DNA from: Floccifex porci
GTDB taxonomy: Bacteria > Bacillota_I > Bacilli_A > Erysipelotrichales > Erysipelotrichaceae
NCBI RefSeq assembly: GCF_009696175.1
Contig: NZ_VUMM01000009.1
Location: 1-61,719 of the forward strand
Direction of reading: 5' to 3'
Length of the DNA: 61,719 nt
Below the pieces are notes generated by a model. The model saw only the letters and a program-made list of their open reading frames with translations, searched no databases and was not told the DNA's origin. Shown here in pieces: positions 8,305 to 61,719 of the stretch; position 1 is the stretch's first letter; each line of letters begins with the position of its first letter. The position numbers and the translations under genes were made by a program.

Positions 8305-8310
8305 AAAACC

Positions 8311-9180: not shown

Positions 9181-9182
9181 GT

Positions 9183-9968: not shown

Positions 9969-9990
9969 GAAACGAAAGTTTCCTTTTTTT
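9967..9990 (+). terminator. Terminator of the TetR-ABC operon
   Basis: AGGAAAC (9967-9973), loop GAAA, GTTTCCT (9978-9984), then six more T. Confidence 0.8.
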
Positions 9991-10058
9991 GATATAATCG
10001 GAGTGTACTGAAAACAATAAATTTAAAATATAAAAAATAGGTAGAAAAGGAGGAAAAT

Positions 10059-12029: not shown

Positions 12030-12048
12030 CGGATTTTCTGCTTTTTTT
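12018..12048 (+). terminator. uvrB terminator
   Basis: A ten-base perfect stem, AGCAGAAAAT (12018-12027) with ATTTTCTGCT (12033-12042), followed by a T-run. The uvrB stop lies in the loop. Confidence 0.85.
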
Positions 12049-12093
12049 AACCGGATTTGTTCGATACGATAAAATGAAAACAGAAGAAAAGAT

Positions 12094-12750: not shown

Positions 12751-12972
12751 AGAATATATTAATGAAGTTAAATCAATTGTAGAATCATATAATGGAAAAT
12801 ATTTAATTCGATCCGAAAAAATAAAATCTTTACATCCCAATCGAAATCCACAAAGAGTTATAGTGATACAATTTCCAGATAAAGAAGCTTTGTATACTTG
12901 TTTTCAGTCCGAAGAATATCAGAAAATAAAAGAATCAATTCTGTACAAGCCAGAGCACTGATCATAGAATAA
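12688..12972 (+). pseudogene. DUF1330-family gene broken by two frameshifts
   Basis: Three pieces in different frames line up with one DUF1330 protein. The first strand (CFFLIDTYIEQEKG) is in the frame of the upstream remnant, the middle (YEEYINEVKSIVESYNGKYLIRSEK and on, in pieces) is in a second frame from 12746, and the end (NSVQARALIIE, stop TAA at 12970) is in a third. The breaks lie near 12740 and 12935. The uninterrupted middle part alone would make a 72-residue product lacking both edges of the fold. The function of the family is poorly defined. Confidence 0.65.
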
Positions 12973-12978
12973 AAAAAG

Positions 12979-12988
12979 AGTTGTGAAC
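12979..12988 (+). repeat. Left target-site duplication of the IS4-family element
   Basis: AGTTGTGAAC at 12979-12988 recurs at 14596-14605 on the other side of the element. Joining the two flanks restores a perfect terminator-like palindrome. Confidence 0.85.
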
Positions 12989-13016
12989 CAATGTCATTAA
13001 GTTAAGAAATGACGAA

Positions 13017-13047
13017 CCATCCAGATACTATTTTCTGGATGGTATTT
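13017..13047. terminator. Hairpin inside the left IS end
   Basis: ACCATCCAG (13017-13025) pairs with CTGGATGGT (13035-13043), followed by ATTTTTA. It lies downstream of the transposase gene for one strand and at the IS edge for the other, a good place to block read-through. Confidence 0.6.
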
Positions 13048-13114
13048 TTATTTGAAGGCACGACGAAAATTGTAGTATTGCTACTACATTTTAAAAATTA
13101 TATAATATTAGTTG

Positions 13115-14422
13115 TTAATCATATCGATAGTTAAAAGATACCGGTGATTTGGCTTTCACTTTCCGTTCATTCTGGCGATTAGGACGGATTGGCAGTATTT
13201 CTTTAGCTATCAGTGATTCAATATCAGGTGGATTCTTTCCACCTTTTTCTTTTAGGTAGTTACGTATTATATGAAAGGCACGTACATAATTTAATTGATA
13301 CTCGTATTTTCTGTCTTTTTCTTTAATTTTTATATTGTTACTTACTCTGCTGCAGAAATTATATAACACTAGCTTTGCATAAATTTCCTGCTCTATAAAC
13401 ATTCTTTTCTTTGAATGCAATGTATTTAAATCTAGATGATATTTCAATTCACGATAACTTGTTTCAATCTCCCAACGAAGGTGGTACAGTTCTTTAATAT
13501 CTTGTATATTGAATTCGGATTCATCTAAATTTGTAATAATACTTTCGTAGGTGTCATCACTAATTTTGAAACGTACAACACGACATTCAAAATCAAAATA
13601 AGGGCTTCCGTCGAAAAAATCAAATCTCTGATTCTTAGGGACAAACTTATATATTTCAGGATGAGCTTTTATTTCATTCGTTTGTTTAGTAGTTAGGGTA
13701 CGGCGAACATGCATATCAAATTCTGCATCTGGAAAAGGGCCAAAACTTCGCAGTACGCTTGTTCTAGAATGAATATCCTTTACTCTGATCAAATACTTAT
13801 GATTCTTCATACCTACTTTCACAAAAGAATTGATAGATTCATAGCCTCTGTCTGCAATGAAAATAGCTTTAGGACCATCATATCTATCCACTATTTCATT
13901 GAATGCACCATTTTCATTCATTACGGCATTTCCTTGAAGAACGATATCATCATAAGTACATTCCAATAGATCATAGCTTGTATTCAGATGATAGGCGGAG
14001 AAAGGTTTATTCGAATTATTGGCCTTATAAAAAGTGGTTTTAGTATCTTTGATAGCACTGCTGATAGGCAGAACAGAACCATCAACAGCGAGAAGGCGAT
14101 AACCTTTGTGAAGCTTGATTTTCTGTGTTCGTTCATTGAACATATTGAATAATGTACGGAATGCATCTGGACGAATCTTACTACGTGCCTGTACAAATGA
14201 AGAAGCTGTAGGCGTATCAAGCTTATATCCAAACAATTTGAACATTTCATCTTTTAAAGATCCAGACTCTAATAAAAGCACATTGAAAAGTGTACTTCCA
14301 AAAAGATGTTTTCTTTTCCGTGTAAAATCCTTATTTGAATCAACAACAAATAGTGAAGAAGAATCATTCATGGTTTTGATGCAGAATTTTAACTGCTTTT
14401 TTAACGATTTATAATTGTTCAT
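13115..14422 (-). CDS. IS4-family transposase
   Basis: A 435-residue DDE transposase. The acidic triad is visible as LLAVDGS, IFIADRGYES and the Y-R-E-K signature in RWEIETSYRELKYH. The start at 14422 has GGAGGT four bases upstream. A longer in-frame start at 14488 would run through a 12-base perfect hairpin and lacks a ribosome site. It cuts and pastes the element by recognising the 23-base ends. The length is normal for the family and no frameshift is seen. Confidence 0.92.
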   Translation of the reverse strand: MNNYKSLKKQLKFCIKTMNDSSSLFVVDSNKDFTRKRKHLFGSTLFNVLLLESGSLKDEMFKLFGYKLDTPTASSFVQARSKIRPDAFRTLFNMFNERTQKIKLHKGYRLLAVDGSVLPISSAIKDTKTTFYKANNSNKPFSAYHLNTSYDLLECTYDDIVLQGNAVMNENGAFNEIVDRYDGPKAIFIADRGYESINSFVKVGMKNHKYLIRVKDIHSRTSVLRSFGPFPDAEFDMHVRRTLTTKQTNEIKAHPEIYKFVPKNQRFDFFDGSPYFDFECRVVRFKISDDTYESIITNLDESEFNIQDIKELYHLRWEIETSYRELKYHLDLNTLHSKKRMFIEQEIYAKLVLYNFCSRVSNNIKIKEKDRKYEYQLNYVRAFHIIRNYLKEKGGKNPPDIESLIAKEILPIRPNRQNERKVKAKSPVSFNYRYD

Positions 14423-14456
14423 AAGTACCTCCAAAAACATATACCTATAAACAATT

Positions 14457-14484
14457 GGCCTATTATCAGAAATGATAATAGGCC
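14457..14484 (-). promoter_or_regulatory. Perfect hairpin upstream of the transposase gene
   Basis: GGCCTATTATCA (14457-14468), loop GAAA, TGATAATAGGCC (14473-14484): a 12-base perfect stem in the leader of the transposase mRNA. There is no T-run on the gene side. It may stabilise or hide the leader of transcripts entering from outside, a control known in other IS4-related elements; that role is inference. Confidence 0.5.
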
Positions 14485-14534
14485 ACACATTTCAACCTGT
14501 ATGTCAACAAAAAAATTCAAATTTTCCATAAAAA

Positions 14535-14563
14535 AAGAGGAGCACATTTTTTGTGTTCCTCTT
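14535..14563. terminator. Hairpin inside the right IS end
   Basis: AAGAGGAGCACA can pair with TGTGTTCCTCTT (one wobble pair) around a T-rich loop. It would catch transcription coming from the ung side before it reaches the transposase gene. Confidence 0.5.
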
Positions 14564-14595
14564 AAAAGATGCCATTTCTTAACTTAATGACATTG

Positions 14596-14605
14596 AGTTG
14601 TGAAC
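14596..14605 (+). repeat. Right target-site duplication
   Basis: Second copy of AGTTGTGAAC, followed by TCTTTTTTTT. The uninterrupted site would read AAAAAAAGAGTT-GTG-AACTCTTTTTTT, a two-way terminator between the DUF1330 gene and ung. Confidence 0.85.
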
Positions 14606-14613
14606 TCTTTTTT

Positions 14614-15273
14614 TTAGATCCATTGGATGGGTGTTTTTCCATTCTGTATTAAATACTGATTGGCCTGAATAAAATGATTGTTCCCAAAGAAACCACGACT
14701 GGCACTTAGTGGGGAAGGGTGCGGACTGGTTAAGACTAAATGTTTTGGATTGTTCAAAAATTTTTTGGCCTGAATGGCACTGTTTCCCCATAATAAAAAT
14801 ACAATGGGCTGATCCTGCTGGTTCAATAATTGTAAAGCGGCATTGGTAAAATTCTGCCATCCTATTTTACTATGAGAAAAAGCTTTATGTGCTTCAACGG
14901 TTAAAACGGTATTCATCAGTAAGACACCTTGTCTGGCCCAGTCCGTTAAATCGCCGTTTCGGTTTACCGGCTGATGGTATTCCATTTCCAGTTCTTTATA
15001 AATATTTTTTAAAGAAGGAGGAAGGGGAAAGTTTTCAGGTACAGAGAAAGCATATCCTTGTGCCTGACCGACATTATGATATGGATCCTGCCCTAAGATG
15101 ACCACTTTTGTATCTTTGATCGAAGTGGTTTTAAAAGCCGCAAAGATATTTTCTTTTTCTGGAAAGATCTGTTTTGTTTTATATTCACGGGCTAAAAAAT
15201 AGCGAATTTTGATTAAATAGTCTTTTTGAATCTCCTGATCAAACAATTGATCCCAATCATTATTTATTGCCAT
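14614..15273 (-). CDS. ung: Uracil-DNA glycosylase, family 1
   Basis: A 219-residue glycosylase that removes uracil from DNA. The water-activating motif GQDPYH and the HPSPLSA loop are intact, and VFLLWGNSA lies between them. The start at 15273 has GAGG upstream. It is divergent from folC, with only about 50 bases between them. The IS4 element lies 18 bases beyond its stop, in what was its terminator. Confidence 0.95.
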   Translation of the reverse strand: MAINNDWDQLFDQEIQKDYLIKIRYFLAREYKTKQIFPEKENIFAAFKTTSIKDTKVVILGQDPYHNVGQAQGYAFSVPENFPLPPSLKNIYKELEMEYHQPVNRNGDLTDWARQGVLLMNTVLTVEAHKAFSHSKIGWQNFTNAALQLLNQQDQPIVFLLWGNSAIQAKKFLNNPKHLVLTSPHPSPLSASRGFFGNNHFIQANQYLIQNGKTPIQWI

Positions 15274-15291
15274 AGTTTTTCCTCGATTTCT

Positions 15292-15319
15292 TTGTTTATA
15301 ATACCACAAATGTTATAAT
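15292..15319 (+). promoter_or_regulatory. folC promoter, apparently giving a leaderless mRNA
   Basis: TTGTTT (15292-15297), 16-base spacer, TATAAT (15314-15319) with an upstream TGT (extended -10). The ATG of folC begins seven bases after the -10 box, at the expected transcription start, and no ribosome site precedes it. Confidence 0.6.
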
Positions 15320-15325
15320 AGCTAC

Positions 15326-16498
15326 ATGAATGTAAAAGAAAAAATAGAAAAGATGGAAGATTGTCGTGGAAAAAATCACGATTTACGTTTATTTCGAAGC
15401 TGGTTAAATGAATATTTGCCAGGACATAGAAATTTGTCTAAAATTCAGGTTGGCGGAACTAATGGAAAAGGAAGTACCTGTCAATGGCTGGCTAGTTTAC
15501 TTGAAAATGCTGGATATAAAGTGGGGGTGTTTACATCTCCTCATTTAATTTCTCATATGGAAAGAATTGTAGTGAATCATAAATCAATTGAAGAAAACGA
15601 ATGGGAAGCGATTTATGATCGGTATGAGTCTTTATTCAGTGAAAAACAGATGACAATGTTTGAAATGGATTTATGGATGGCATTGGACTATTTTCTAAAA
15701 CAGGAAGTGGATGTTGCGATTATAGAAGTTGGTATGGGAGGACGATTGGATGCGACAACGGCATTGGATTATTGTGCAACACTAATTACCAATGTTGGAT
15801 GGGATCATCAACAATATTTAGGGGATTGCATTGAACAGATTGCGTATGAAAAAAGTGGTATCTTTAAGCCAAATGTACTGGCTTTGACAACGGAAAAAAA
15901 GAAAAACTGTCAAACGGTTATGGAAAATGTGGCTTCTGTTATGCATCCTATTTTAGGATTTGTGGATTTTCCATATGAAAAAAGAGAAGGAATGAACGCA
16001 TTTGAATGGGAAAATCATACATATACGACCTCTTTACCTTCTTATCAGATGGACAATCTGGGACTGGCTTTAGAAACCTGTCATGCCTTAGGCATTGATT
16101 TAGAAGTGGAATGGATTCAGAAATCAATTGATGAATTTTCATGGTTGGGACGCTTTACACAACTAAATCGTCCATATAAAGTGATATTGGATGGAGCTCA
16201 TAATATGGATGGCATACAGGCATTGGTGAAATCCATTTCAAAATGGGACGGAGACATATATTTTTCTGCTTTAAGCGATAAAGATGTTGAAGAAATGTTA
16301 AAGATACTGGAAACTTTACATTGTCCGATTACTTTGGTTTCCATTGACAGCTATCGCTGTTATCCGCTGGAAACATTATCCTATCCTTTGATTTCAAAAG
16401 AAGAATTGATTGAAAGAATCAATCATCCCGTTACAGATATGCTGATATGTGGTTCGTTGTATTTTATTGGAGAAGTATTGGAGAAAGTTGATGGCTAA
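15326..16498 (+). CDS. folC: Folylpolyglutamate/dihydrofolate synthase
   Basis: A 390-residue Mur-ligase-like enzyme that adds glutamate to folates and often also makes dihydrofolate. The P-loop is GGTNGKGST near residue 43, followed by FTSPHL, the DATTALDY region and the ILDGAHN motif that opens the C-terminal domain. It probably starts from a leaderless mRNA. The next gene starts within its last codons. With glyA, folD and the cyclodeaminase gene, it forms the folate set of the window. Confidence 0.92.
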   Translation: MNVKEKIEKMEDCRGKNHDLRLFRSWLNEYLPGHRNLSKIQVGGTNGKGSTCQWLASLLENAGYKVGVFTSPHLISHMERIVVNHKSIEENEWEAIYDRYESLFSEKQMTMFEMDLWMALDYFLKQEVDVAIIEVGMGGRLDATTALDYCATLITNVGWDHQQYLGDCIEQIAYEKSGIFKPNVLALTTEKKKNCQTVMENVASVMHPILGFVDFPYEKREGMNAFEWENHTYTTSLPSYQMDNLGLALETCHALGIDLEVEWIQKSIDEFSWLGRFTQLNRPYKVILDGAHNMDGIQALVKSISKWDGDIYFSALSDKDVEEMLKILETLHCPITLVSIDSYRCYPLETLSYPLISKEELIERINHPVTDMLICGSLYFIGEVLEKVDG

Positions 16499-49743: not shown

Positions 49744-49832
49744 GTTCAAATAATAAGAGTTAATGTAGTTCGAAAGAATAAGATTAATTCGAAAACTATC
49801 AAAGGTAGCAATTGTGCTACCTTATTTTCTTT
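49744..49832 (+). ncRNA. tracrRNA between cas9 and cas1
   Basis: The first 36 bases (49744-49779) are almost fully complementary to the CRISPR repeat: 13 pairs, one G-G mismatch, then further pairs, a two-base G-A/A-G internal loop at positions 29-30, and six closing pairs. After a short structured linker comes a nine-base hairpin, AAGGTAGCA/TGCTACCTT, with a T-rich tail. The strand matches that of the array. The whole fits a type II tracrRNA. Confidence 0.9.
49802..49832 (+). terminator. tracrRNA terminator, directly before cas1
   Basis: AAGGTAGCA (49802-49810), loop ATTG, TGCTACCTT (49815-49823), then ATTTTCTTT. The cas1 ATG is the next base. The hairpin thus occupies the place where a cas1 ribosome site would be. 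Confidence 0.85.
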
Positions 49833-50735
49833 ATGGGCTGGAAAACAATAATAATTAGTTCAGATTGTAAAGTGTCATTAAGTGAAAACAGAATGAAATT
49901 AACTACAGGAAATGAATACCAAACATTTGCGTTATGTGATATTGATACAATTATTTTTTCACATGATAAATTAGTTATCACGATACCTTTGTTAACTAAA
50001 CTGGTCGAGAAAAATATAAACGTTGTAATATGTGATAGTAAAAATGATCCTATTGGTGTATTTCAGGCGTTCAATAATCATTCTTTGGTTTTTAAACAAT
50101 TAAATAATCAAATAAATTGGAAAATCACGCGTAAAAAGAGGCTCTGGAAATTAATAATAGAACAGAAAATTAATACAGAAATAGATGTATTAAACTTGCT
50201 TGAAAAAAATAAAGAATCACAAGAAATATTAAAAGATTATAAGAATTCTGTATACAATAATGATCAAACAAATAGAGAAAGTGCAAGTGCACGTGTTTAT
50301 TTTAGAACTTTGTTTGGGTTGGATTTTAGAAGAGAAGATACAAATGTTACAAATATTGCACTAAATTATGGATATAAAATATTATCTAGTTATATTTCTA
50401 AATGTATTGTGGCAAGAGGATTTGTTACACAATTAGGTATTCACCATATAGGAGAATCAAATGCATTTAATTTAACATATGATTTTATCGAACCATTTAG
50501 AGCAATTGTGGATATTTGGGTATATTTAAACATCAAAGATAAATTCAAAGCAGCACACAAGATGGAATTGGTTAATTTATTGCAGTGTAAGATTAAAGTG
50601 AATGATAAATGGTTCCGGCTATGTGATGCAATAGAAGATATTATTGATTCATATATATCTTTTCTAAATGAAAAAACAAGTGATGTACTTAAAATTAGTC
50701 TAAGTGAAGGGATTATTTTTAATGGGGATGATTAG
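49833..50735 (+). CDS. cas1: CRISPR integrase Cas1
   Basis: A 300-residue Cas1, which with Cas2 inserts new spacers. It opens MGWKTIIISSDCK like other type II Cas1, and the catalytic region includes TQLGIHHIGESNAFNLTYDFIEPFR (Glu, His and acidic positions, in pieces). The start at 49833 fits the family; earlier in-frame codons would translate the tracrRNA terminator. No ribosome site is visible, so expression may be low. Confidence 0.92.
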   Translation: MGWKTIIISSDCKVSLSENRMKLTTGNEYQTFALCDIDTIIFSHDKLVITIPLLTKLVEKNINVVICDSKNDPIGVFQAFNNHSLVFKQLNNQINWKITRKKRLWKLIIEQKINTEIDVLNLLEKNKESQEILKDYKNSVYNNDQTNRESASARVYFRTLFGLDFRREDTNVTNIALNYGYKILSSYISKCIVARGFVTQLGIHHIGESNAFNLTYDFIEPFRAIVDIWVYLNIKDKFKAAHKMELVNLLQCKIKVNDKWFRLCDAIEDIIDSYISFLNEKTSDVLKISLSEGIIFNGDD

Positions 50736-51069
50736 ATTTATGAGACTAATCTTAATGTTTGATTTACCTGTTGAGACCAAACAACAACAGAAAGTATATA
50801 GAGAATTCATAAAATTTTTGAAGAATGAAGGATTTATTCGAATTCAATATTCGATATATTCAAAATTATGTATAAATAAAGATTCTGCTAAAACTGTTTC
50901 AAAACATATATCAATGCATTCACCGACTGAAGGAGATATTAGATACTTAATTATTTCAGAAAATCAATATCAAAATATCGTTAATGTAAATAAAAAACAT
51001 ACGTTACAAGAAGCAATTACAACTACAAAGCGTACATTAATAGTTGGAGGATTTAGTGATGATAATTAA
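50722..51069 (+). CDS. cas2: CRISPR integrase subunit Cas2
   Basis: A 115-residue Cas2. It has the ferredoxin-like RLILMFDLPVETK strand and GFIRIQYSIYSKL. It overlaps the end of cas1. The ATG at 50722 has GAAGGG ten bases upstream; ATG 50728 is nearly as good. Its stop overlaps the csn2-like start. Cas2 bridges two Cas1 dimers. Confidence 0.9.
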   Translation: MGMIRFMRLILMFDLPVETKQQQKVYREFIKFLKNEGFIRIQYSIYSKLCINKDSAKTVSKHISMHSPTEGDIRYLIISENQYQNIVNVNKKHTLQEAITTTKRTLIVGGFSDDN

Positions 51070-51949
51070 AAGTTTGATTACAGATAATACATATATTCTT
51101 CCTTTTAATTATTGCATTAATATCATTTCTTTTTCTGAATTTAAAGCAGATATAATTGACTGTTTGGATTCTTATTTTAACAATAATAAAAAGAATAAAG
51201 CAATAATAAAAGATGATGAAGATGAAATCATATTATCAAAAGATTTTAATTTTATTTATATTCCTTCTAGCAAGAATATAGATCCAAATTTTGAATTCAA
51301 AAATAAAAGTCTTATGAATTTAGAAATTTCAAAAATAATTGAAGAAAATTCTGAATATTTTCAATCAATTGATTTAATACGAAATGGATTCTATGATTTG
51401 TTGACAGATTGTGGAATATATAAATTGAAAAGAATTTTAGAAAAAGATTTAGACAAACATGTTGAAATAGAAATTGATGATTTTGATATATCAACATTAC
51501 TTCAATCATTCAAAATTAATACAGATATGTTTTCAGAAACAGATAAATACATTGTTTTATATAATTTGCTTCTCTATTTAAATAGAAACGAAAATAATAT
51601 TGTTCTTATTGATTTTAATATTCAGGAAAAAGAATTAAATTGGATAAAGAAAATTGATAAAGATCATAATTTTTTATTAATAGACAATGAATCTATTTTT
51701 ACAGATATTGCTGATATAAAATCTATGGCTTTTGTAAGGCTTTCATATCACAATTTTTTAGAAAAAATAAATATTCAGCGTGATGATTTCAACCGATTAT
51801 CTTATATATTTCATACATTTTTCGAAAAGAATATTCAATATCAAACTGAAAAAAATATCGAATTATATAGAAATTTTGAGGATAAAAATACAACTTTTTT
51901 GATTAAACCAATTGACACTGAATCTGAATATTTGGCTAATATTAAGTAA
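51059..51949 (+). CDS. csn2: Csn2-like protein, long form
   Basis: 296 residues at the position of csn2, between cas2 and the array. GGAGG lies eight bases before ATG 51059. The acidic, lysine-rich composition with alternating helices and strands (NNIVLIDFNIQEKELNWIKK, NFLLIDNESIF) suits the Csn2 fold, a ring that binds DNA ends during adaptation. It is longer than the classical 220-residue form. By eye the sequence is too divergent to prove the family, so context carries most of the call. Confidence 0.6.
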   Translation: MIIKSLITDNTYILPFNYCINIISFSEFKADIIDCLDSYFNNNKKNKAIIKDDEDEIILSKDFNFIYIPSSKNIDPNFEFKNKSLMNLEISKIIEENSEYFQSIDLIRNGFYDLLTDCGIYKLKRILEKDLDKHVEIEIDDFDISTLLQSFKINTDMFSETDKYIVLYNLLLYLNRNENNIVLIDFNIQEKELNWIKKIDKDHNFLLIDNESIFTDIADIKSMAFVRLSYHNFLEKINIQRDDFNRLSYIFHTFFEKNIQYQTEKNIELYRNFEDKNTTFLIKPIDTESEYLANIK

Positions 51950-51974: not shown

Positions 51975-53584
51975 GTTCTTGAGGACTACATTAATTGTTA
52001 TTATTTGAACCTTTTCAATATCTATTAATGGTTCCGTTGGTTCTTGAGGACTACATTAATTGTTATTATTTGAACCTAGTAGAAGAAGATATTGCGGTAT
52101 TAACGTTCTTGAGGACTACATTAATTGTTATTATTTGAACACACTCATTGATAATGGATTATCCCCAACGTTCTTGAGGACTACATTAATTGTTATTATT
52201 TGAACAGTAGACAATCGAAAGATAAGCGACCAACGTTCTTGAGGACTACATTAATTGTTATTATTTGAACGAATTGACTAAAGAATTGCAGATCATGACG
52301 TTCTTGAGGACTACATTAATTGTTATTATTTGAACCTGTACTCAACTCTGAATCAAGTATCAATGTTCTTGAGGACTACATTAATTGTTATTATTTGAAC
52401 AGTGATACAAATAAGATGATCATCAGCCAGTTCTTGAGGACTACATTAATTGTTATTATTTGAACCGATAACCTTGAATCATATATAGATAAAGAGTTCT
52501 TGAGGACTACATTAATTGTTATTATTTGAACGTCTTCAATGTAAAGGAGTAAGTTATGTGGGTTCTTGAGGACTACATTAATTGTTATTATTTGAACTGG
52601 AAGCAAGCCATCCACATGATGATTTTGTTCTTGAGGACTACATTAATTGTTATTATTTGAACTATGCAATGCAGATGGTTTTCATTTTGAAGGTTCTTGA
52701 GGACTACATTAATTGTTATTATTTGAACGGATTCAAAGCAAAACAAACAAGGGTACATGTTCTTGAGGACTACATTAATTGTTATTATTTGAACCATATG
52801 TTTGGAGACAAAAGACGTGGGTTTGTTCTTGAGGACTACATTAATTGTTATTATTTGAACGAATTAAGACATGGCAACAGCAGTTCAAGGTTCTTGAGGA
52901 CTACATTAATTGTTATTATTTGAACAGGAAGATTGGGCGGATGAACGTAGATTCAGTTCTTGAGGACTACATTAATTGTTATTATTTGAACTTGGTGGAC
53001 ATATCGCAGAACACTATCACAGTTCTTGAGGACTACATTAATTGTTATTATTTGAACTTCATGTTCAACTAAACCAAAGAAGAAAAAGGTTCTTGAGGAC
53101 TACATTAATTGTTATTATTTGAACCAAAACGCATGGACGGCTTCACAGACCGCGTTCTTGAGGACTACATTAATTGTTATTATTTGAACCTGGTGATGAA
53201 TCATAATGAATAAGTATCAGGTTCTTGAGGACTACATTAATTGTTATTATTTGAACTTGAATCTCTTTGATTGAGAATCCTCCTCCGTTCTTGAGGACTA
53301 CATTAATTGTTATTATTTGAACTTATCTGCTGTTAATCAATTAGGATTATCGTTCTTGAGGACTACATTAATTGTTATTATTTGAACATACGGATTGTCT
53401 GACCAGCACTGTATCGAGTTCTTGAGGACTACATTTATTGTTATTATTTGAACGCATATAAAAATAAAAACGTTTCAAATAAGTTTTTGAGGACTACATC
53501 AATTGTTATTATTTGAACATTATCAGTATAGATTCTGTAAGTTCATATGTTCTTGAGGACTACATTAATTGTTATTATTTGAAC
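51975..53584 (+). CRISPR. CRISPR array, 25 repeats and 24 spacers
   Basis: 36-base repeats starting GTTCTTGAGGACTAC and ending TTATTATTTGAAC, with spacers of 29-31 bases. Repeats start at 51975, 52040, 52105 and so on to 53549. Repeats 1-22 and 25 are identical; repeat 23 (53418) has one change and repeat 24 (53483) has two. Old, degenerate repeats at the right end and the + strand tracrRNA put the leader on the left, beside csn2. No spacer was seen to match this window. Confidence 0.98.
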
Positions 53585-53589
53585 TTAAC

Positions 53590-53781
53590 ATGGATATTTT
53601 AAACAATTTAATTGTGAGAAAGATATTAGAAAATAATTTTAATGACATTATTACAACTTATTTTTGTTGTGAATTTCAGGATAATAAAATATGGCTTTAT
53701 GATTTATTTGTTCATTCAATTATCAAATTAAATATAGTTTACAGAGGGAAGATTAAAAATTATGAAAGAGATAAGATTTAG
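53590..53781 (+). CDS. Doubtful small ORF between array and hxsD (63 aa)
   Basis: An open frame of 63 residues begins five bases after the last repeat and overlaps hxsD by 20 bases. No ribosome site precedes it and no family is recognised. The 5' region of the next operon, including a possible -10 (TATAGT, 53733-53738), lies inside, so it may be leader rather than gene. Confidence 0.25.
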   Translation: MDILNNLIVRKILENNFNDIITTYFCCEFQDNKIWLYDLFVHSIIKLNIVYRGKIKNYERDKI

Positions 53782-54124
53782 AAAAGAATTATATTCAAAG
53801 GTTGCTTTGATTAAGGCAGCCTATAATTTTTCTGATAAAGCATATATTCATTTGGATGCAGATGAAAGTTATTATTATGTAAGATTAGAAACTAAATTAG
53901 ATGGAAAAGAGATAAGTGAAAATGAATTTATAAATGAAATGCTTTCACAAAGTATAAGACATGAAGTATATCTACAAACAAAGGATATTCGAGAATTATT
54001 GTTAGCTCGTGCCATGTCAACTAGTTTAGTTGCTAAGGAAAATGTTTTAAATGAATCAGTGGTTCCTGAAGCATTTTCAGAAGATGAGATATTAAAGGAT
54101 TGGTTTAATAATGAAAATAATTGA
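53762..54124 (+). CDS. hxsD: His-Xaa-Ser system protein HxsD
   Basis: A 120-residue protein with the HxsD layout: IKAAYNFSDKAYIHLDAD (in pieces), then YYVRLE, then FINEMLSQSIRHEVYLQTKDIRELLLARA (in pieces), which corresponds to the conserved FxNELLNDYxLRE region of the family. HxsD accompanies two radical-SAM enzymes in His-Xaa-Ser loci. Its job is unknown; a substrate-binding (RRE-like) partner is a reasonable guess. AGAGGGAAG lies upstream. It overlaps the next gene and opens the operon. Confidence 0.85.
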   Translation: MKEIRFRKELYSKVALIKAAYNFSDKAYIHLDADESYYYVRLETKLDGKEISENEFINEMLSQSIRHEVYLQTKDIRELLLARAMSTSLVAKENVLNESVVPEAFSEDEILKDWFNNENN

Positions 54125-54311
54125 AATTCATAGTGAAATATACAGATATAAATCAGTAATGCGTGCTATTTCTGCGTATAATGGGCTAGCTAAGATTAAA
54201 CTGGTAAAAGATGATAATTATTACGTATTAGAATTTGATCAATGTAAGTATGATGAAGATAGGACTATAAAAGAATTTGAAAATTATTTAATTGGAGTTG
54301 AAAATACATAA
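54111..54311 (+). CDS. Second, shorter HxsD-like protein (66 aa)
   Basis: 66 residues that repeat the first half of the HxsD pattern: SEIYRYKSVMRAISAYNGLAKI, then DDNYYVLEFD, aligned to ELYSKVALIKAAYNF and DESYYYVRLE of the gene before. It overlaps HxsD by 14 bases and the next gene starts one base after its stop. A duplicated, shortened HxsD domain is the best reading; this rests on a by-eye alignment. Confidence 0.6.
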   Translation: MKIIEIHSEIYRYKSVMRAISAYNGLAKIKLVKDDNYYVLEFDQCKYDEDRTIKEFENYLIGVENT

Positions 54312-55334
54312 ATGAATATACTAGAAATGTGCAGTATTTTTTTAATTATTGTTGCGAGTTTTATATGTAGTAAAACAGATTTGAAAGAAGGGTTGATTTA
54401 TAACAAGGCTTTGCTTTTATTTGCAGGAATAGCAATACTAGTGGACTTAGTGTATTACGGCTTTTTTGTTCGAGATCTTTTTTTTGATTTTTTATTGAAT
54501 CTAATCATTATCGCTTTGATCAGCACTATTCTATTTTTGAGTAATTCTTATGCTGGTGGTGATAGTAAAATGACGATTGTATTGTCGTTACTCTATCCAG
54601 CAAGATTATATATTGTGTACGGGAATACAAATTTGACTTTATATTTTACTATAGGAATTTCTTTGATTGTAGGGTTTATGTATTTATTAATGAATTCTAT
54701 TTGGTCAATGATTGTAAAAAAAGAAGTAATTTCAAAAGAGTATGTAATTCAAAATTTCAAGATGTTTTTTTCGTCATACTTTAAAGCATTGATATATTTG
54801 TCATTGTTCAATATAATTCTTATTTTCATTGGAAGAAATGGTTTATATCTTAATGAATGGATTACTAGAATAATATGTTTTGTAATAGCTTGGTTTGTTG
54901 GAAAAAATGAAATATTTCATAAAAAAGGAATGTTAATAGGAACGTTTTTGATTACTTTAACGTGTTCAATATTAATGAAGCAGATTCCTATTTCATTAAA
55001 TCCTGAACATTATTATTTGATATTTATTTTATTGTTTTGTCAGATGTTTATTAAAACTAATATATATGAAACAATAAAAATCATTGATTTGAAACCAGGT
55101 ATGATTCTTTCAACTGCCTGCACTTTACCAATGCAACTATCTATTACACCAGGATTGCCTAAAGTTTCAAAAGAAGATTTGAGTAACAGATTAACAAATG
55201 AAGAAATTGATAGTATAAAACTGTGGGCTAAAGCAACAAAAGTCGAAGAATTGATAATAGTGAAAAAAATACCTTTTGCGATTTTTGTTTCGGCAGGTTT
55301 TATTATTTATTTCATTATATGGAGCACATTATGA
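54312..55334 (+). CDS. A24-type prepilin peptidase-like membrane protein
   Basis: 340 residues, about eight membrane segments. The two aspartates of A24 (type IV prepilin-like) peptidases are present: Asp23 in SKTDLKEGLIYNK and Asp84 in AGGDSKM. After the usual peptidase core come extra membrane segments and a soluble loop (about 255-310, LKPGMILSTACTLPMQ), then a final anchor. No pilin or secretion ATPase gene is nearby. The HXS substrate protein at 59169 has a hydrophobic N-terminal segment after an EEGN-P-G stretch and could be its target; that is inference. Confidence 0.75.
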   Translation: MNILEMCSIFLIIVASFICSKTDLKEGLIYNKALLLFAGIAILVDLVYYGFFVRDLFFDFLLNLIIIALISTILFLSNSYAGGDSKMTIVLSLLYPARLYIVYGNTNLTLYFTIGISLIVGFMYLLMNSIWSMIVKKEVISKEYVIQNFKMFFSSYFKALIYLSLFNIILIFIGRNGLYLNEWITRIICFVIAWFVGKNEIFHKKGMLIGTFLITLTCSILMKQIPISLNPEHYYLIFILLFCQMFIKTNIYETIKIIDLKPGMILSTACTLPMQLSITPGLPKVSKEDLSNRLTNEEIDSIKLWAKATKVEELIIVKKIPFAIFVSAGFIIYFIIWSTL

Positions 55335-56434
55335 TTAAAATTAAAAATTATAAAGGATTTTTTAGAATTTTATCTATCGCAAAAAATGAAATGGATCGAA
55401 GAGAATTGGTAGCAAATTGTTTAGATTTTCTCTTTATTACTGAAAATGATGCAACTATCTATCCGGATCAGATTAAATTGACAAATGAAATGAGTGAAGT
55501 GATTGAACTTAATAAATATAATAGCTTCGATGTTATTGAAGTATGGGAAAATGGTTTAGTTTCAAGAAAATATAATGATAAATCAGACGATAATTATTTC
55601 TTTATTACTGGTTCTTGTAACTCAAATTGTATTATGTGCCCATCACCAGATTTTTCTAGAAAAAATAGTAAAGCAGTACCATTACAAGAATTGATTGAAC
55701 TTGCTAGACATATTCCCAAGGACACTCCACACCTGACAATAACAGGGGGAGAACCTTTTATGATAGGAGATCGTATTTTTACTTTTATTGAATATTTAAA
55801 GACATTTTTTCTAAATACTGAGTTTTTATTTCTTACAAACGGAAGAATATTTTCGATCCCAAGATATGTCAAATTATTTAGTGAATGTGCGCCGGCTTAT
55901 TCTGTTGTTGCTATACCAATACATGGATCATGTTCAAAAATACATGATGCAATAACTCGTAGTTCAGGAAGTTTTAATCAGACAAAGTTTGGGATTACTC
56001 AGCTTCTTAGAAATAATATTGCAGTGGAATTGCGACTTGTGACTAATAAAATGAATATTGATGACTTTGAAAAAATAGCTGAATTAATAATTAATGATTT
56101 TAGTACTGTTGCGTATGTCAGCATTATTGCAATGGAAATGACTGGAAATGCTAGACTAAATTATAAAGATGTTTGGATTCCATATAGAGAAACTTTCCAA
56201 AAAATTGAAACAGCCATATTAAAATTGTTAAAAGCAGGAATAGAAGTAAAATTGTATAATTTTCCTCTTTGTACCATATCATCTTCATACTGGTCTATTT
56301 CTAAACAAAGCATTTCATATGAAAAAATTCGTTATAGTAATAAATGTAAAAAATGTAAAGTGAAAACTGAATGTGGAGGAATTTTTTCTGGAACAAAGGA
56401 TCTAGAGGAATCTGAATTGGAGGCAATTATATGA
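55331..56434 (+). CDS. hxsC: Radical-SAM enzyme, HxsC type
   Basis: A 367-residue radical-SAM protein. The iron-sulfur cysteines are C96, C100 and C103 (GSCNSNCIMCPSPD), followed by the GGEP motif (LTITGGEPF). A C-terminal cysteine group (KCKKCKVKTECGG) suggests further cluster binding. The N-terminal 90 residues are the extra domain of HxsC. In His-Xaa-Ser loci HxsC and HxsB occur as a pair. The ATG overlaps the A24 stop, with GGAG six bases upstream. Confidence 0.82.
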   Translation: MIKIKNYKGFFRILSIAKNEMDRRELVANCLDFLFITENDATIYPDQIKLTNEMSEVIELNKYNSFDVIEVWENGLVSRKYNDKSDDNYFFITGSCNSNCIMCPSPDFSRKNSKAVPLQELIELARHIPKDTPHLTITGGEPFMIGDRIFTFIEYLKTFFLNTEFLFLTNGRIFSIPRYVKLFSECAPAYSVVAIPIHGSCSKIHDAITRSSGSFNQTKFGITQLLRNNIAVELRLVTNKMNIDDFEKIAELIINDFSTVAYVSIIAMEMTGNARLNYKDVWIPYRETFQKIETAILKLLKAGIEVKLYNFPLCTISSSYWSISKQSISYEKIRYSNKCKKCKVKTECGGIFSGTKDLEESELEAII

Positions 56435-57825
56435 AATGGAATTATTTTAATTTTAGACAGTTTAAAGATAAGATTTTGATGACCAATGATTTAGGTAAAC
56501 ATATTTTTGTCTCCTTAGAGGATTTCAGAAAAATTATAAATAAAACAATTGATTTGAATTCAGATATAGGAAAAGAATTGATTCAAAAACAGTTTATATA
56601 CGAAGGAACGAATTTACTTTTTTGTAATGAAAATTATAGTAGCATCAGACAAATTAAAAGCCATTTAAATATTGCGACTTCACTACATATATTTGTAGTG
56701 ACTACTGGATGTAATACAAGCTGTATTTATTGTCAAGCAAACAAAGGGAATGAAAATACTAAACTACGAGTTATGGATGAATTGATGGCTGAAAAAGCAG
56801 TTGATATTGCTCTTCAATCACCAAATAAATATTTGAGTTTTGAATTTCAGGGTGGTGAACCATTAATAAATTTTAATGTAATCAAACAAATCGTATTGTA
56901 TGCAGAGCAACATAAAGGAAATCATGAAATATTTTATAATGTTGTAACTAATTTAACATTGATTACTGATGAAATACTTGAATTCTTTAAAAAATACAGA
57001 TTTGATATTTCAACTTCATTAGATGGACCTATTTATGTTCATGATTTTAATCGGCCATATAAATCAGGTAAAGGTACTTTTGAGGATGTAACGCAATCTA
57101 TTAATAAAATTCGCAATGCTGGATTACGTGTTGGTGCCATTCAAACAACAACGCGTCATTCATTGAACTATTCTAAAGAAATTGTAAACACTTATCAAGA
57201 ACTTGGATTTGATAGCATTTTTCTTAGACCTCTTACTCCATTAGGAAAAGCAAATAAATCATGGAATCTTATTGGATATTCAGCTAAAGAATTTTTAGAT
57301 TTTTATCGTAAAGCTCTAGATGAATTATTTACAATCAACAGTAATGGTACTTATATAAAGGAAAATCATGCGGGAATACTATACAGCCGTATTCAAGGTA
57401 ATGCAGAAAATTATATGGAATTACGATCTCCATGTGGTGCAAGTATTGGACAGATTGCTTATTATTCTGATGGAAATATTTTTACATGTGACGAAGGAAG
57501 AATGTTATATGAAATGGGATATGACACATTTAAATTGGGTAATGTTTTTGAGAATTCCTATTATGATTTAATAAATAATGGTGTTAGTAAAACAGTATGT
57601 GCTGCAAGTATTCTTGAAACAATTCCATCTTGTTGCGATTGTGTTTATCAGCCCTATTGTGGAACATGCCCTGTAGTAACTTATTCGAAAAATGATGATA
57701 TTATTGAAAAAAGTCCATTTGGTTATAAATGTACAATATATAGTGGAATAATGGATATTCTTTTTGAAAAAATATTAGAGAATGATAAGAAAATATTAGA
57801 TATACTAGAGATGTGGAGTAATTAA
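56431..57825 (+). CDS. hxsB: Radical-SAM maturase, HxsB type
   Basis: A 464-residue radical-SAM/SPASM enzyme. The SAM cluster is C94, C98, C101 (TGCNTSCIYCQA), then FQGGEPL. The SPASM part carries SPCGAS, FTCDEGR, SCCDCVYQPYCGTCP and a last YKC, enough for two auxiliary clusters. Such maturases modify peptides or proteins, for example by crosslinks at unactivated carbons. The gene overlaps hxsC by four bases. Its likely substrate is the His-rich protein at 59169. Confidence 0.88.
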   Translation: MKWNYFNFRQFKDKILMTNDLGKHIFVSLEDFRKIINKTIDLNSDIGKELIQKQFIYEGTNLLFCNENYSSIRQIKSHLNIATSLHIFVVTTGCNTSCIYCQANKGNENTKLRVMDELMAEKAVDIALQSPNKYLSFEFQGGEPLINFNVIKQIVLYAEQHKGNHEIFYNVVTNLTLITDEILEFFKKYRFDISTSLDGPIYVHDFNRPYKSGKGTFEDVTQSINKIRNAGLRVGAIQTTTRHSLNYSKEIVNTYQELGFDSIFLRPLTPLGKANKSWNLIGYSAKEFLDFYRKALDELFTINSNGTYIKENHAGILYSRIQGNAENYMELRSPCGASIGQIAYYSDGNIFTCDEGRMLYEMGYDTFKLGNVFENSYYDLINNGVSKTVCAASILETIPSCCDCVYQPYCGTCPVVTYSKNDDIIEKSPFGYKCTIYSGIMDILFEKILENDKKILDILEMWSN

Positions 57826-57826
57826 T

Positions 57827-59176
57827 ATGGATGATAAACAAATAAAATCTGATGATAAACAGGATGATGTTGCTGAACAAGTAATAGAAAAAACAACACC
57901 TTTAGAAGAATACAAGAAGGCACGTAAACAAAATAATGGTAAATATATGAAACTATTTTTATTTGTTTTTATTCAAATAGGTTTATGTTTTGGCTTGTTT
58001 ACATTTTCTTATCAAAATGATTTGAACTATAGAGTATTTAAACATATCGAATATAACCTTACAGGAAAAATCCATTTAAAAACAGGAACATATACAGGAG
58101 AAGTAGATTTTGGATATTTAACTGGAAAAGGAATTTTTAATTACAAATCAAGTAGTACGTATAACGGTGAATTTTTAAACAATGAATTATCAGGTATTGG
58201 AAAGTTAAATATTCCATCGAAAGGTGAATATGTTGGGTCTTTTGAAGAGTCTCAAAAAAAAGGAAAAGGAGTTTTTACATGGACAGATGGGTCAACCTAT
58301 GAAGGTCATTGGAGCAATGATGCTTTAAATGGGGAAGGTATCTATACGGATGCAGATGGAATTTCTCTAATTGGAACTTTTCAGAATAATAAAATAAAGT
58401 CAGGGACTTGCGATTTTGAAAATAAAACTGGTAAATATCATTTAAAATTTGAAGATTTTGAAATTGAAAATGCACAAATAGAATTTTCAGATGGAACTGA
58501 ATATATAGGTAAGGCTTCTGCTTCAGCTATAGAAGGAGAAGGGAAGATGACATTCGCAAATGGTGATACATACGAAGGCTCTTTTACCGATGGGAAACGA
58601 TCTGGAAATGGCAAATACACATGGGTGAATGGCGATTATTATGAAGGCAATTGGAATTCAGATCAAATGAGTGGGACAGGAATCTATCATTTTGAAAATG
58701 GTAGCTCAATGTCGGGTGAATTTTTAGAGAATTCTTTTGAAAATGGAACAATAATAATCATTAATTCAAATGGAAAATATACATTTGAATATAAAGATCA
58801 AGAGCTTTTGAATGTGGTAATGGAACTTAAAAATGGTACATATTATTCAGGTACAATTACTGATGGAAAGCTGACGGGAGATGCTGAAATTAAATATTCA
58901 AATGGCGATACATATGAAGGGAAAGTAATTGATGGGAATAAATCTGGATCCGGTATTTATTATTGGGATTCAGGAGCTTGGTATGAAGGATCGTGGGAAA
59001 ATGATCAAATGAATGGTAAAGGTACTTATAGATATTCATCTAAAGAACCAGGGTATAAAATAATTGGTAATTTTTTGAATAGTGCACCTAATGGTGAATG
59101 CCAATATTATGTAAATAGTTCAGATGCATATAAAACAGATTGGGCAAATGGAAAGTGTGTAAAAATTTATGAATAA
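57827..59176 (+). CDS. Membrane-anchored MORN-repeat protein
   Basis: 449 residues: an acidic, Lys-rich N-terminus, one membrane segment at about 44-62, then about a dozen MORN-like units (TYEGHWSNDALNGEGIYT, TYEGSFTDGKRSGNGKYTW and similar) to the end. MORN repeats form elongated beta sheets used as scaffolds. The repeat part would lie outside the cell. GGAG lies upstream and the HXS substrate gene starts in its last codons. A scaffold or anchor for the modified protein is inferred from the context. Confidence 0.8.
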   Translation: MDDKQIKSDDKQDDVAEQVIEKTTPLEEYKKARKQNNGKYMKLFLFVFIQIGLCFGLFTFSYQNDLNYRVFKHIEYNLTGKIHLKTGTYTGEVDFGYLTGKGIFNYKSSSTYNGEFLNNELSGIGKLNIPSKGEYVGSFEESQKKGKGVFTWTDGSTYEGHWSNDALNGEGIYTDADGISLIGTFQNNKIKSGTCDFENKTGKYHLKFEDFEIENAQIEFSDGTEYIGKASASAIEGEGKMTFANGDTYEGSFTDGKRSGNGKYTWVNGDYYEGNWNSDQMSGTGIYHFENGSSMSGEFLENSFENGTIIIINSNGKYTFEYKDQELLNVVMELKNGTYYSGTITDGKLTGDAEIKYSNGDTYEGKVIDGNKSGSGIYYWDSGAWYEGSWENDQMNGKGTYRYSSKEPGYKIIGNFLNSAPNGECQYYVNSSDAYKTDWANGKCVKIYE

Positions 59177-59738
59177 AGATTTTGAAATTTTTCCAACTAT
59201 ACAAAAAAAATTGGAAAATTTAATAGAGGATGAGGAAGGAAATATTCCAGGGAATAGATTATTGATGCTGGGAACTATGATGGTGATTTTAGGAAGTCTG
59301 TTGACAACGGATATTTATGCAACGCATCGGTCTCATAGTTCGCATAGATCTCATAGTTCACATCGATCTAGTAACGGTCATGGGAATCATAGTAATCACG
59401 CTAGTCACAGCAATCATGGAAGTCATGAAAGCCATCAAAGTCATCAAAGTCATACTTCTCATTCTAATACAGCATCGCATTCAAATTCGTTGTATAGTGC
59501 AGAAGGGGATGTCAGATATTCAGCACCAGCTGCTAGTTCAGTTCCAGGAGTTATACCACCTGTATCCAATGCAGATAGTACAATTTCTTTACCTATAATT
59601 AATGAAAATATTGAGATTCCCAATGTTACTCCGGCTTCAAAAATTATTCCTACACTATCTGTGCCAGTCGTAACAGAAACAGTAACAATGGATGTTCCAA
59701 AAGTACAAAATATACCTAACACAGAAAAAATCAAGTGA
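59169..59738 (+). CDS. hxsA: His-Xaa-Ser repeat protein (HxsA-like substrate)
   Basis: A 189-residue protein. It has an acidic leader (residues 1-28), a hydrophobic segment (about 31-50), a His/Ser region (53-104), and a Pro/Val-rich tail. In the middle region His occurs at 53, 56, 59 and so on to 104: 16 of the 18 positions in an exact three-residue register, mostly as H-x-S. This is the hallmark of HxsA, the presumed substrate of HxsB/HxsC. The start overlaps the MORN gene. Modification, export and function are unproven. Confidence 0.85.
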   Translation: MNKDFEIFPTIQKKLENLIEDEEGNIPGNRLLMLGTMMVILGSLLTTDIYATHRSHSSHRSHSSHRSSNGHGNHSNHASHSNHGSHESHQSHQSHTSHSNTASHSNSLYSAEGDVRYSAPAASSVPGVIPPVSNADSTISLPIINENIEIPNVTPASKIIPTLSVPVVTETVTMDVPKVQNIPNTEKIK

Positions 59739-59753
59739 TAGGAGGAATAGGAA

Positions 59754-60854
59754 ATGATTGAAGAAAAACAACGGCAGATAAGTGATAAGCCTTTTGAAGA
59801 AGTTGAGTCGAAAGCACTTGCAACAGCAAAACAAGTAAAAGATGAAGTAAAAGAAAAACTTGAAAAAGAAGATTATTCTGGTTTGAATACCAATCTCTTA
59901 GAAATGACAAAAGATAATAGTCAAAATGAAAAATATATTTTTAAACCTAAAGAACGGAAGAAAGACATTGCTTTTCTTATTTTAATTTTAATTGTAGCAA
60001 TGGCTGAAATATATTTAGCATTTATAGGTGCATTCTCTGCGTTTTTCTCTAAGACGTATTTTATTTCAGGAATCATGATATTGGTATTGTGTTTGATATG
60101 TCTTATTATTAATGCAAGAGTATCATATAAGAGAATTGTCAACATAAGAAAAAATGAAATTTATGAAGTATATTATGATCAATTATATTGTAAATCATAC
60201 TGTTATATTGATGACATGATTCAAAGTTGTAATAGAAACTTGGAACAAGTGCTATCTGATTTACAAGATGCTATAGATCGGAAACTTATTCCACAAGGTC
60301 ATTTTAGCACTGAAAAAAATGTATTTTTTGTATCTGACCATGCATTTTCAAAATATGAGGAGATGGCAGTGGTGTATGATGACTATTTTAAAAAGCAATT
60401 AGAAGAAAGAAAACGGATTCGTGAAAGAACTCCAGAGATCATTAATATTTTAGCAACCGGAGATCAATATGTTGAGAAATTACAGTACATTGAAAATCAA
60501 ATCAGTAATAAGAATATGAAATCTAAAATATTGATGATGAAAAAAACGATAACTTCAATTTTTAGAGAATTGGATATGAATCCTAATTATGTAGGGTCAT
60601 TAAACTTGTTTCTGGATTATTATTTGCCAACAACTGAAAAACTATTAGATACCTATCTTGAAATTGATTCGAAACCGAACATTCCAAATATAAGGAAAGC
60701 TAAGAAAGAAATATATGATAGCATTTTCCTTATTGTTTCGGTATATGAAGGGATTCTGGATCGGCTTTATGAAGATATAGAATTTGATATATCAAGTGAA
60801 GTTTCAGCACTAGAAATAATTACCAGTCAGGAAGGTTTAGCTGATGAAAAATGA
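59754..60854 (+). CDS. XpaC/YceG-like membrane protein (PF10112 type)
   Basis: A 366-residue protein: a charged N-terminal coil, two membrane segments (about 66-85 and 92-112), and a long C-terminal helical domain with the conserved pattern FRELDMNPNYVGSLNLFLDYYLPTTEKLLDTY (in pieces). This matches the family named 5-bromo-4-chloroindolyl phosphate hydrolysis protein (XpaC), which is often paired with TelA. A pair with a TelA-like gene is seen here too. AGGAGG precedes the ATG. The name's enzyme activity is doubtful. Confidence 0.75.
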   Translation: MIEEKQRQISDKPFEEVESKALATAKQVKDEVKEKLEKEDYSGLNTNLLEMTKDNSQNEKYIFKPKERKKDIAFLILILIVAMAEIYLAFIGAFSAFFSKTYFISGIMILVLCLICLIINARVSYKRIVNIRKNEIYEVYYDQLYCKSYCYIDDMIQSCNRNLEQVLSDLQDAIDRKLIPQGHFSTEKNVFFVSDHAFSKYEEMAVVYDDYFKKQLEERKRIRERTPEIINILATGDQYVEKLQYIENQISNKNMKSKILMMKKTITSIFRELDMNPNYVGSLNLFLDYYLPTTEKLLDTYLEIDSKPNIPNIRKAKKEIYDSIFLIVSVYEGILDRLYEDIEFDISSEVSALEIITSQEGLADEK

Positions 60855-61185
60855 AACTAATTATAAAGAAGTCAAAGATATTATTAGTGGACAATTGATT
60901 TTAGGAAATCATGATTCGATTCTCTTATTTGAATCAAAAGTTCAAAACACAATTAATATCTCAATAAGACGAATTTCAACATTATTGCTTTCCCACGATA
61001 ATGAACTTAATGAATTGTGTAGTAGAACAATTGAAGAAATTGATAATTTAAATAGAGAAGTTAAAGAAAGTTCTTTATTTAAAATAGGTAAGAAAAAACA
61101 AATAAAGAAGATATCTGATCATTATCATACTATTTTTGAAATGATTGAGAGTTTAGAAAAGCAATATTGTCACCATTCCGTTTGA
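60844..61185 (+). CDS. Short TelA-like protein, N-terminal part only (113 aa)
   Basis: 113 residues resembling the first third of TelA (toxic-anion resistance family): LILGNHDSILLFESKVQNTI, then LSHDNELNELC, then EIDNLNREVKES. Full TelA proteins are about 350-400 residues; here the frame stops after EKQYCHHSV and the following bases do not continue the family in any frame noticed. It overlaps the XpaC-like gene by 11 bases and ends the operon. It may be truncated, or a short natural form. Confidence 0.55.
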   Translation: MKNETNYKEVKDIISGQLILGNHDSILLFESKVQNTINISIRRISTLLLSHDNELNELCSRTIEEIDNLNREVKESSLFKIGKKKQIKKISDHYHTIFEMIESLEKQYCHHSV

Positions 61186-61555
61186 AAAAAGCCACTATTC
61201 TTTTATAAAACAACCCAGTTTCTTCTAAATTAGTAAGAAGTATATCAAAATAGTGATCAAATACGTACATTCTTAAATAATCATTTTTGTACATATTTAG
61301 ATTAGCAATTATACGTATTTCAGATAGGGTAGTTCATGATAGATAGTTGCAGGGATTTGGTGATGGATTATCTGGTTGATTATCACAAAAACACGGAATG
61401 ATATTTGACTTCAATGAAAAGGAAAAACAATGTCCAATGTGTTTACCAGATTTAAAAATTGTTATGACAGGGAGTCAATTTGTTATTTCGATAGGATGTC
61501 TGAAAGATTGAAATATATTAGTTAATAAAAGGATTCGTTCATGATATAATCCCAC
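61186..61555. other. Gap with decayed sequence between the HXS operon and an IS
   Basis: 370 bases without a gene. A frame near 61428-61511 reads KQCPMCLPDLKIVMTGSQ to a stop and faintly resembles an ATPase fragment, too weak to name. No terminator for the HXS operon is evident. Nothing else is recognised. Confidence 0.35.
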
Positions 61556-61719
61556 TGAAGTAGACACACGAAATAATTAAAATTATCCCATTGATGTGAA
61601 ACTACAAAGGTGGGATTTTTTATATGGGAAGAAAAGCTAAATATACAAAAGAACAAAAGGTACAGGCTTGTGAAGATTATTTAAATAAAAGAAAATCTGC
61701 AGAACAAATAAGGATTGAA
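61556..61719 (+). mobile_element. Left end of an insertion sequence, cut by the window edge
   Basis: A likely IS end near 61556 (TGAAGTAGACACACG) is followed by a hairpin (ATCCCA at 61585, TGGGAT at 61611, then T-run) and a transposase start. The exact end and family cannot be fixed without the right end; an IS3-type element is most likely. Confidence 0.55.
61622..61719 (+). CDS. Transposase, N-terminal fragment (IS3 OrfA type)
   Basis: The first 32 residues (MGRKAKYTKEQKVQACEDYL and on) look like the helix-turn-helix start of IS3-family OrfA transposases. The frame is open to the window end. No good ribosome site is seen; a hairpin with a T-run lies just upstream. Confidence 0.65.

Follow-up and report, generated by a model that had tools for sequence, protein, structure and literature searches.

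An HxsA3-type His-Xaa-Ser cassette of Floccifex porci with an A24 prepilin-peptidase-like protein and a MORN protein as linked partners

The window, a 61,719-nucleotide stretch of contig NZ_VUMM01000009.1 from Floccifex porci, contains at 53762 to 61185 on the plus strand nine tightly packed open reading frames (ORFs) whose cassette is almost certainly a His-Xaa-Ser (HXS) system of the HxsA3 type. In all ten HxsA3 loci compared, the genes for HxsD, a prepilin-peptidase-like protein of family A24, HxsC, HxsB, a MORN protein, and the repeat substrate HxsA3 lie side by side, and the cassette genes are strictly linked and share joint descent. The explanation that best covers these observations, to which we give an even chance, is that HxsA3 would be modified by the radical S-adenosylmethionine (SAM) enzymes of the cassette, inserted into the membrane, cut by the A24 protein, and held by the MORN protein. 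HXS systems are known; what would be new, if true, is a prepilin-type peptidase that matures a radical-SAM-modified protein, and this is an idea that can be tested.

The cassette and its constant partners

The window proteins HxsD, HxsD-like, HxsC, HxsB, and HxsA3 exceeded the curated NCBIfam cut-offs (Table 1), and five consecutive family matches above cut-off are far beyond chance. A sequence-only reading of the same DNA had named these five genes (the last as HxsA-like), and the profile search placed all of them in the corresponding families. The same reading took hxsA to hxsD as defining a known system, which is correct, but the substrate here belongs to a separate NCBIfam type, HxsA3, and did not reach the cut-off of the canonical HxsA model TIGR03979 (20.8 versus 121.65). 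All nine ORFs were present, and the claim that they form an operon holds because their intergenic spacings range from −14 to +15 nt (in order, −14, 0, −4, −4, +1, −8, +15, and −11 nt), in agreement with the earlier view of one co-acting unit with overlapping junctions. Searches of the cassette region for Rfam elements, promoters, and terminators gave no Rfam match and nothing convincing for the other two.

Profile searches gave no second HXS system in the host's order, class, or phylum: HxsB was above cut-off in 1 of 316 genomes of the order, HxsD in 1 of 395 of the class, and HxsA3 in 1 of 392 of the phylum, and the single genome was the host each time. Relatives were therefore sought in Clostridia, the class of Maledivibacter halophilus (locus L031). 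When contigs were scanned with the HxsB profile alone, only an unrelated radical SAM gene was found. Nine further HxsA3 loci were obtained, seven from Clostridia genomes, one from a prophage-like contig (L035), and one from a fecal contig (L045). The six genes named above occur in two arrangements. The order in the window, hxsD, hxsD-like, A24, hxsC, hxsB, MORN, hxsA3, is also that of L045, L073, and L075, and the hxsD-like gene is confined to these four loci; L035, L069 to L072, and L074 have the order MORN, hxsA3, hxsD, A24, hxsC, hxsB. Since the partners are common to both gene orders, they have been retained through rearrangement.

Among the loci compared, the A24 and MORN genes are confined to this type of system. 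Neither was found by profile search in the nine HXS loci with other types of HxsA (L038 to L041, L043, and L046 to L049), so that the coupling of both genes to HXS proposed in the sequence-only reading was borne out (10 of 10 HxsA3 loci versus 0 of 9 others). Across 215 genomes of one family, the profile of the HXS-type A24 protein matched exactly the six genomes with HxsA3; the same set had already been searched for HxsA3, and we regard the A24 scan as an unbiased test. A tblastn search with the window A24 protein gave no match in 72,556 plasmids, at least 400 of which have hxsB or hxsC matches. The ten A3 loci were split from the rest in the HxsB tree with a support of 100/100, and Mantel correlations with the HxsB distances were 0.96 for A24, 0.89 for MORN, and 0.93 for HxsA3, values that none of 5,000 permutations equaled.

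A candidate leader site in HxsA3

The HxsA3 proteins share one plan, which consists of an N terminus of cytosolic type, the motif [DE]EE[GA][NS]I[PST], a K or R, a hydrophobic stretch of 16 to 19 residues, H.SH.SH repeats, and a tail rich in Pro and Thr. In the window protein the leader reads EDEEGNIPGNR, the transmembrane (TM) segment spans approximately residues 31 to 49, and 11 HxS triplets start at residue 53, followed by the Pro/Thr-rich tail. The leader motif with the adjoining hydrophobic stretch was present in all ten HxsA3 proteins and in no other of the 3,484 ORFs of the scanned loci. It is missing from the HxsA proteins of the nine non-A3 loci, the majority of which start with a Sec-like signal that is basic and hydrophobic. 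Just before the first H.S triplet, HxsA of L039, L041, L047, and L048 and several HxsA3 proteins have the junction A-G-H or A-A-H. This junction recurs across HxsA types with or without an adjacent TM helix or signal, and it might mark a site of maturation or cleavage.

Prepilin peptidases cut ahead of the hydrophobic helix of pilins. The cassette A24 protein has approximately 340 amino acids and about 7 hydrophobic segments, and in the window it carries the motifs T-D23..N31 and G-G-D84-S-K86. Within the general form T/S/F-D23....N31 and G83-D84-.-K86, the D, N, G, D, and K residues are invariant in all ten proteins, and D23 and D84 match the catalytic aspartate pair of prepilin peptidases. 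All ten members of the clade of the window A24 protein matched PF01478 (best E value, 1.5e-10). Outside the cassette, the host genome encodes a single A24 peptidase of the ordinary kind, on contig 40.

From these features the following route can be proposed. HxsA3 would be made with a short cytosolic leader that ends in [DE]EE[GA]-[NS]-I and is followed by a TM helix and the HxS-repeat domain. In the cytosol HxsB and HxsC, with HxsD as a partner, would modify the His and/or Ser residues of the repeats, a reaction that we infer from the genes and motifs present; that these two enzymes alter the His-Ser-rich membrane protein HxsA3 is probable. HxsA3 would next enter the membrane with its repeats outside, and the dedicated A24 protein would cut off the leader between E-E-G/A and N/S-I at the inner face of the membrane, as prepilin peptidases do. 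The leader motif is better explained as an A24 site than as a signal for the maturases, because HxsB, HxsC, and HxsD occur without the motif and the HXS-type A24 protein does not. Whether A24 cuts HxsA3 at this conserved site is, in our judgment, evenly poised. Finally, the TM-anchored MORN protein, which in L035 also has a peptidoglycan-binding domain, might tether the processed HxsA3 to the cell wall, a function that we propose tentatively. For the succession put forward in the sequence-only reading, in which the substrate is modified, processed, exported, and held at the surface, which we likewise infer, there is now a specific candidate cleavage site.

Seven MORN stretches were recognized by Pfam in the window MORN protein. 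The MORN protein of L035 is the only one of the ten with a PG_binding_1 (peptidoglycan-binding) domain (E value, 4e-15), and the tails of three non-A3 HxsA proteins resemble peptidoglycan hydrolases or SleB in NCBIfam. A role in the envelope is thus indicated for both types of system, and the end product is likely a protein of the envelope that is encoded on mobile DNA.

Several points weigh against this route. The sole pilin-like trait of the HxsA3 leader is the placement of the E-E-G/A site just before the predicted TM helix. HxsA3 leaders do not have the Glu at +5 of canonical pilins (+5 is N, G, or S), and a genuine Flp/TadE pilin or class III signal was rejected because eight leaders gave no Pfam match. 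The window A24 protein itself matched PF01478 weakly (18.5 bits, below the cut-off of 26.5), and an AlphaFold2 model of A24 built from two input sequences was unusable (predicted local distance difference test [pLDDT] score, 38) and provided no active-site geometry. The topology of HxsA3 and of the MORN protein is read from hydropathy only. In addition, a signal-peptidase-like A-x-A/G ahead of the HxsA3 repeats could equally serve export.

Alternative explanations and related systems

Radical SAM enzymes of ribosomally synthesized and post-translationally modified peptides (RiPPs) usually read a leader, and it is conceivable that the conserved HxsA3 leader is a recognition element of this type for HxsB, HxsC, and HxsD, with A24 acting elsewhere or having a nonproteolytic role in the membrane. 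Conservation of the leader does extend past the E-E-G/A site (K/R-I/L-L..G). However, homologues of the three proteins occur beside substrates without this leader in the nine non-A3 loci, and a conserved N-terminal site is seen in none of the other cassette genes, so that we consider this explanation unlikely. Export of HxsA3 by an extended Sec signal, with signal peptidase I cutting at A|GH or A|TH and freeing the repeats, would give A24 a secondary role. The small residue that precedes the first repeat His in most members (YA|TH, EA|GH, VYA|GH, and FA|AH) and the K or R ahead of the hydrophobic stretch fit such a signal, but the A-G-H/A-A-H junction lies far from the Sec signal in several non-A3 HxsA proteins, where it may instead be a maturation motif, and the strict linkage of A24 would be left unexplained. 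We therefore rate this route as improbable. Still less can be said for a surface metal-binding protein in a system for metal capture or protection: the repeats are rich in His and gave weak low-complexity matches to ZIP transporters, but those matches are compositional and under cut-off, the cassettes showed no gene for a metal transporter, and the proposal seems quite improbable.

A nine-gene unit, with the XpaC-domain gene and its downstream neighbor as real members, also has to be considered. The two genes are coupled in spacing to those before them (+15 and −11), the pair has a strong ribosome-binding site, and the host has its own XpaC-TelA pair elsewhere, so that the window copy may be specialized. 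In its C-terminal part the window protein is 27% identical over 135 amino acids to the XpaC protein on host contig 10 (BLASTP E value, 3e-17), although its score against PF10112 (26.3 bits) is below the cut-off of 29.8. The pair was, however, found in the window only and in none of the nine other HxsA3 loci, for which it was rejected as a core part, and the second gene is not recognizably TelA. The 113-amino-acid product of that gene had no Pfam hit, TelA (PF05816) included, and a BLASTP E value of 0.25 against the host TelA, and 72 of 1,000 shuffles scored as high, so the TelA identity was rejected. Thus, of the XpaC/TelA pair in the sequence-only reading the XpaC domain is supported, whereas the TelA identity and membership in the system are not. 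It seems very unlikely that the two genes belong to the unit, and they are probably local passengers. Compared with known XpaC-TelA pairs, the window has an XpaC domain encoded after hxsA3, but the pair is not conserved with HXS and the partner is not TelA by any test. On host contig 10, where XpaC is encoded beside a full TelA, the pair (324 to 3210 of L078) lies directly 3' of a gene for an AAA+ protein with an ATP-binding GKT motif.

The HXS system, HxsABCD, was reportedly described by Haft and Basu. With it the window shares HxsB, HxsC, and HxsD above the NCBIfam cut-offs and a substrate with HxS repeats; it differs in having HxsA3 rather than HxsA, an additional HxsD-like gene, and the dedicated A24 and MORN proteins, and its substrate has neither a separate Sec-like signal nor a peptidoglycan-binding tail. 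An article (PMC9062424) cites Haft and Basu for the HXS system. A literature search that lacked most subscription papers found nothing published on HXS chemistry or experiments and no mention of A24 or MORN partners of HXS. HxsA3 and HxsD-like already have NCBIfam models, so that part of the A3 variant was known to the NCBI curators.

The cassette A24 protein resembles the A24 prepilin peptidases (ComC/PilD/TadV and archaeal PibD-EppA) in being polytopic, in the TD....N and GGD.K motifs with both Asp residues, and in its similarity to PF01478. In contrast to them it has a long C-terminal part with a GMILS...LP..E...R.T motif and is partnered with HXS rather than pilins, and the window member falls below the Pfam cut-off. 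HxsB is significantly similar by profile to radical SAM/SPASM maturases of RiPPs (SCIFF maturase, PapB, and anSME), and its profile also matched the structures 5wgg (a radical SAM peptide maturase) and 4k36 (anSME). Unlike those maturases, the HXS cassette has two radical enzymes for one large repeat protein and, in place of the usual proteases of RiPP clusters, A24 as a candidate leader peptidase. It is possible, and somewhat doubtful, that A24 is devoted to removing the leader of a membrane-embedded repeat protein modified by radical SAM enzymes. Processing of such products would then be of a new kind, with maturation as in pilins bringing a modified, polymer-like protein to the Gram-positive envelope, where the MORN protein would hold it. 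The A3 variant is a rare form of HXS that adds two faithful partners, A24 and MORN, and yields one sharp prediction, a cut after EEG or EEA in the HxsA3 leader. Having its own peptidase and a surface repeat protein makes the HXS pathway easier to test, and, if the prediction is true, prepilin peptidases reach a new class of substrates.

Features, neighboring genes, and mobile DNA

Table 1. Positions in the window of the cassette genes and of the candidate cleavage point
Feature	Position	Strand	Basis
hxsD, small HXS partner protein	53762..54124	+	TIGR03976, 83.7 bits (cut-off, 50)
hxsD-like (HxsD_rel)	54111..54311	+	NF038315, 74.0 bits (cut-off, 41)
A24 prepilin-peptidase-like integral membrane protein, candidate HxsA3 leader peptidase	54312..55334	+	PF01478 matches in its clade; Asp motifs
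hxsC, radical SAM enzyme, cluster motif CNSNCIMC	55331..56434	+	TIGR03977, 314.7 (cut-off, 267.9)
hxsB, radical SAM/SPASM-like maturase, CNTSCIYC	56431..57825	+	TIGR03978, 519.4 (cut-off, 370)
MORN protein, one N-terminal TM segment (43-61)	57827..59176	+	PF02493, E value 1e-39
hxsA3, His-Xaa-Ser repeat substrate	59169..59738	+	NF038309, 119.1 (cut-off, 65)
Predicted cut by A24, directly past the codon for Gly (HxsA3 residue 24) in EEG|NI	59238..59240	+	Conservation of the site
XpaC-domain membrane protein, two TM segments, probably accessory or adventitious	59754..60854	+	Similarity to the host's own XpaC
113-aa protein, family not recognized, in the position where TelA follows XpaC	60844..61185	+	No Pfam/TelA match

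In the AlphaFold2 prediction (mean pLDDT, 81.6), HxsD has a beta-alpha-beta-beta-alpha core that is extended by long helices at the C terminus. HxsD was rejected as a PqqD-type recognition element when no PqqD-type match was found, fold searches included. Foldseek gave no match to the HxsD model at an E value of ≤0.001, and VIA-align returned only common ferredoxin-like folds with Z of ≤6.9, a list from which absence proves nothing. An anti-phage family was also rejected for the cassette; PADLOC gave only generic viperin-like radical SAM matches. In L074, a gene for a DNA/RNA nonspecific endonuclease (PF13930) is located directly 3' of hxsB (4453 to 5673).

HXS systems are spread across many phyla, plasmids, and phages. 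The G+C content of the cassette is 29%, compared to 31 to 36% over the initial 45 kb of the window, and the cassette is flanked by a clustered regularly interspaced short palindromic repeat (CRISPR) array and by a transposase-like ORF that begins at the end of the contig. Because the cassette is AT rich and set between these two elements, its acquisition by horizontal gain is suggested. The array (52221 to 53584) has 21 near-identical 36-nt repeats, GTTCTTGAGGACTACATTAATTGTTATTATTTGAAC, at a spacing of 65 to 67 nt, and ends approximately 180 nt before hxsD. Upstream of it, ORFs at 49812 to 50735, 50704 to 51069, and 51044 to 51949 were read from their sequences as Cas1-like, Cas2-like, and possibly Csn2-like, respectively. 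An ORF of up to 70 amino acids (53569 to 53781) in the gap between the array and hxsD overlaps the hxsD start and is possibly a gene remnant. Beyond the cassette, the region from 61185 to 61620 has no long open frame and a decayed look, and the transposase-like ORF starts at 61624 and continues to 61719 (MGRKAKYTKEQKVQACEDYL...).

HXS genes are often on mobile DNA. Matches to hxsB or hxsC were present in at least 400 plasmid records, more than 320 of them from Klebsiella and most predicted to be conjugative, and HXS genes are also present in a Leptospira phage. Serine recombinases adjoin the HxsA3 cassettes in L069 and L075. In the prophage-like contig L035, the cassette (8057 to 16201) is located beside genes read from the ORFs as encoding a tyrosine integrase and the proteins of a phage tail, and it is possible that this HXS system is phage cargo. 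The 7.6-kb fecal record L045 (MT837156.1), labeled 'UNVERIFIED: Bacteriophage sp.', contains a FabZ-like gene as well as an entire HxsA3 cassette and has the appearance of a piece of bacterial DNA, not of a phage.

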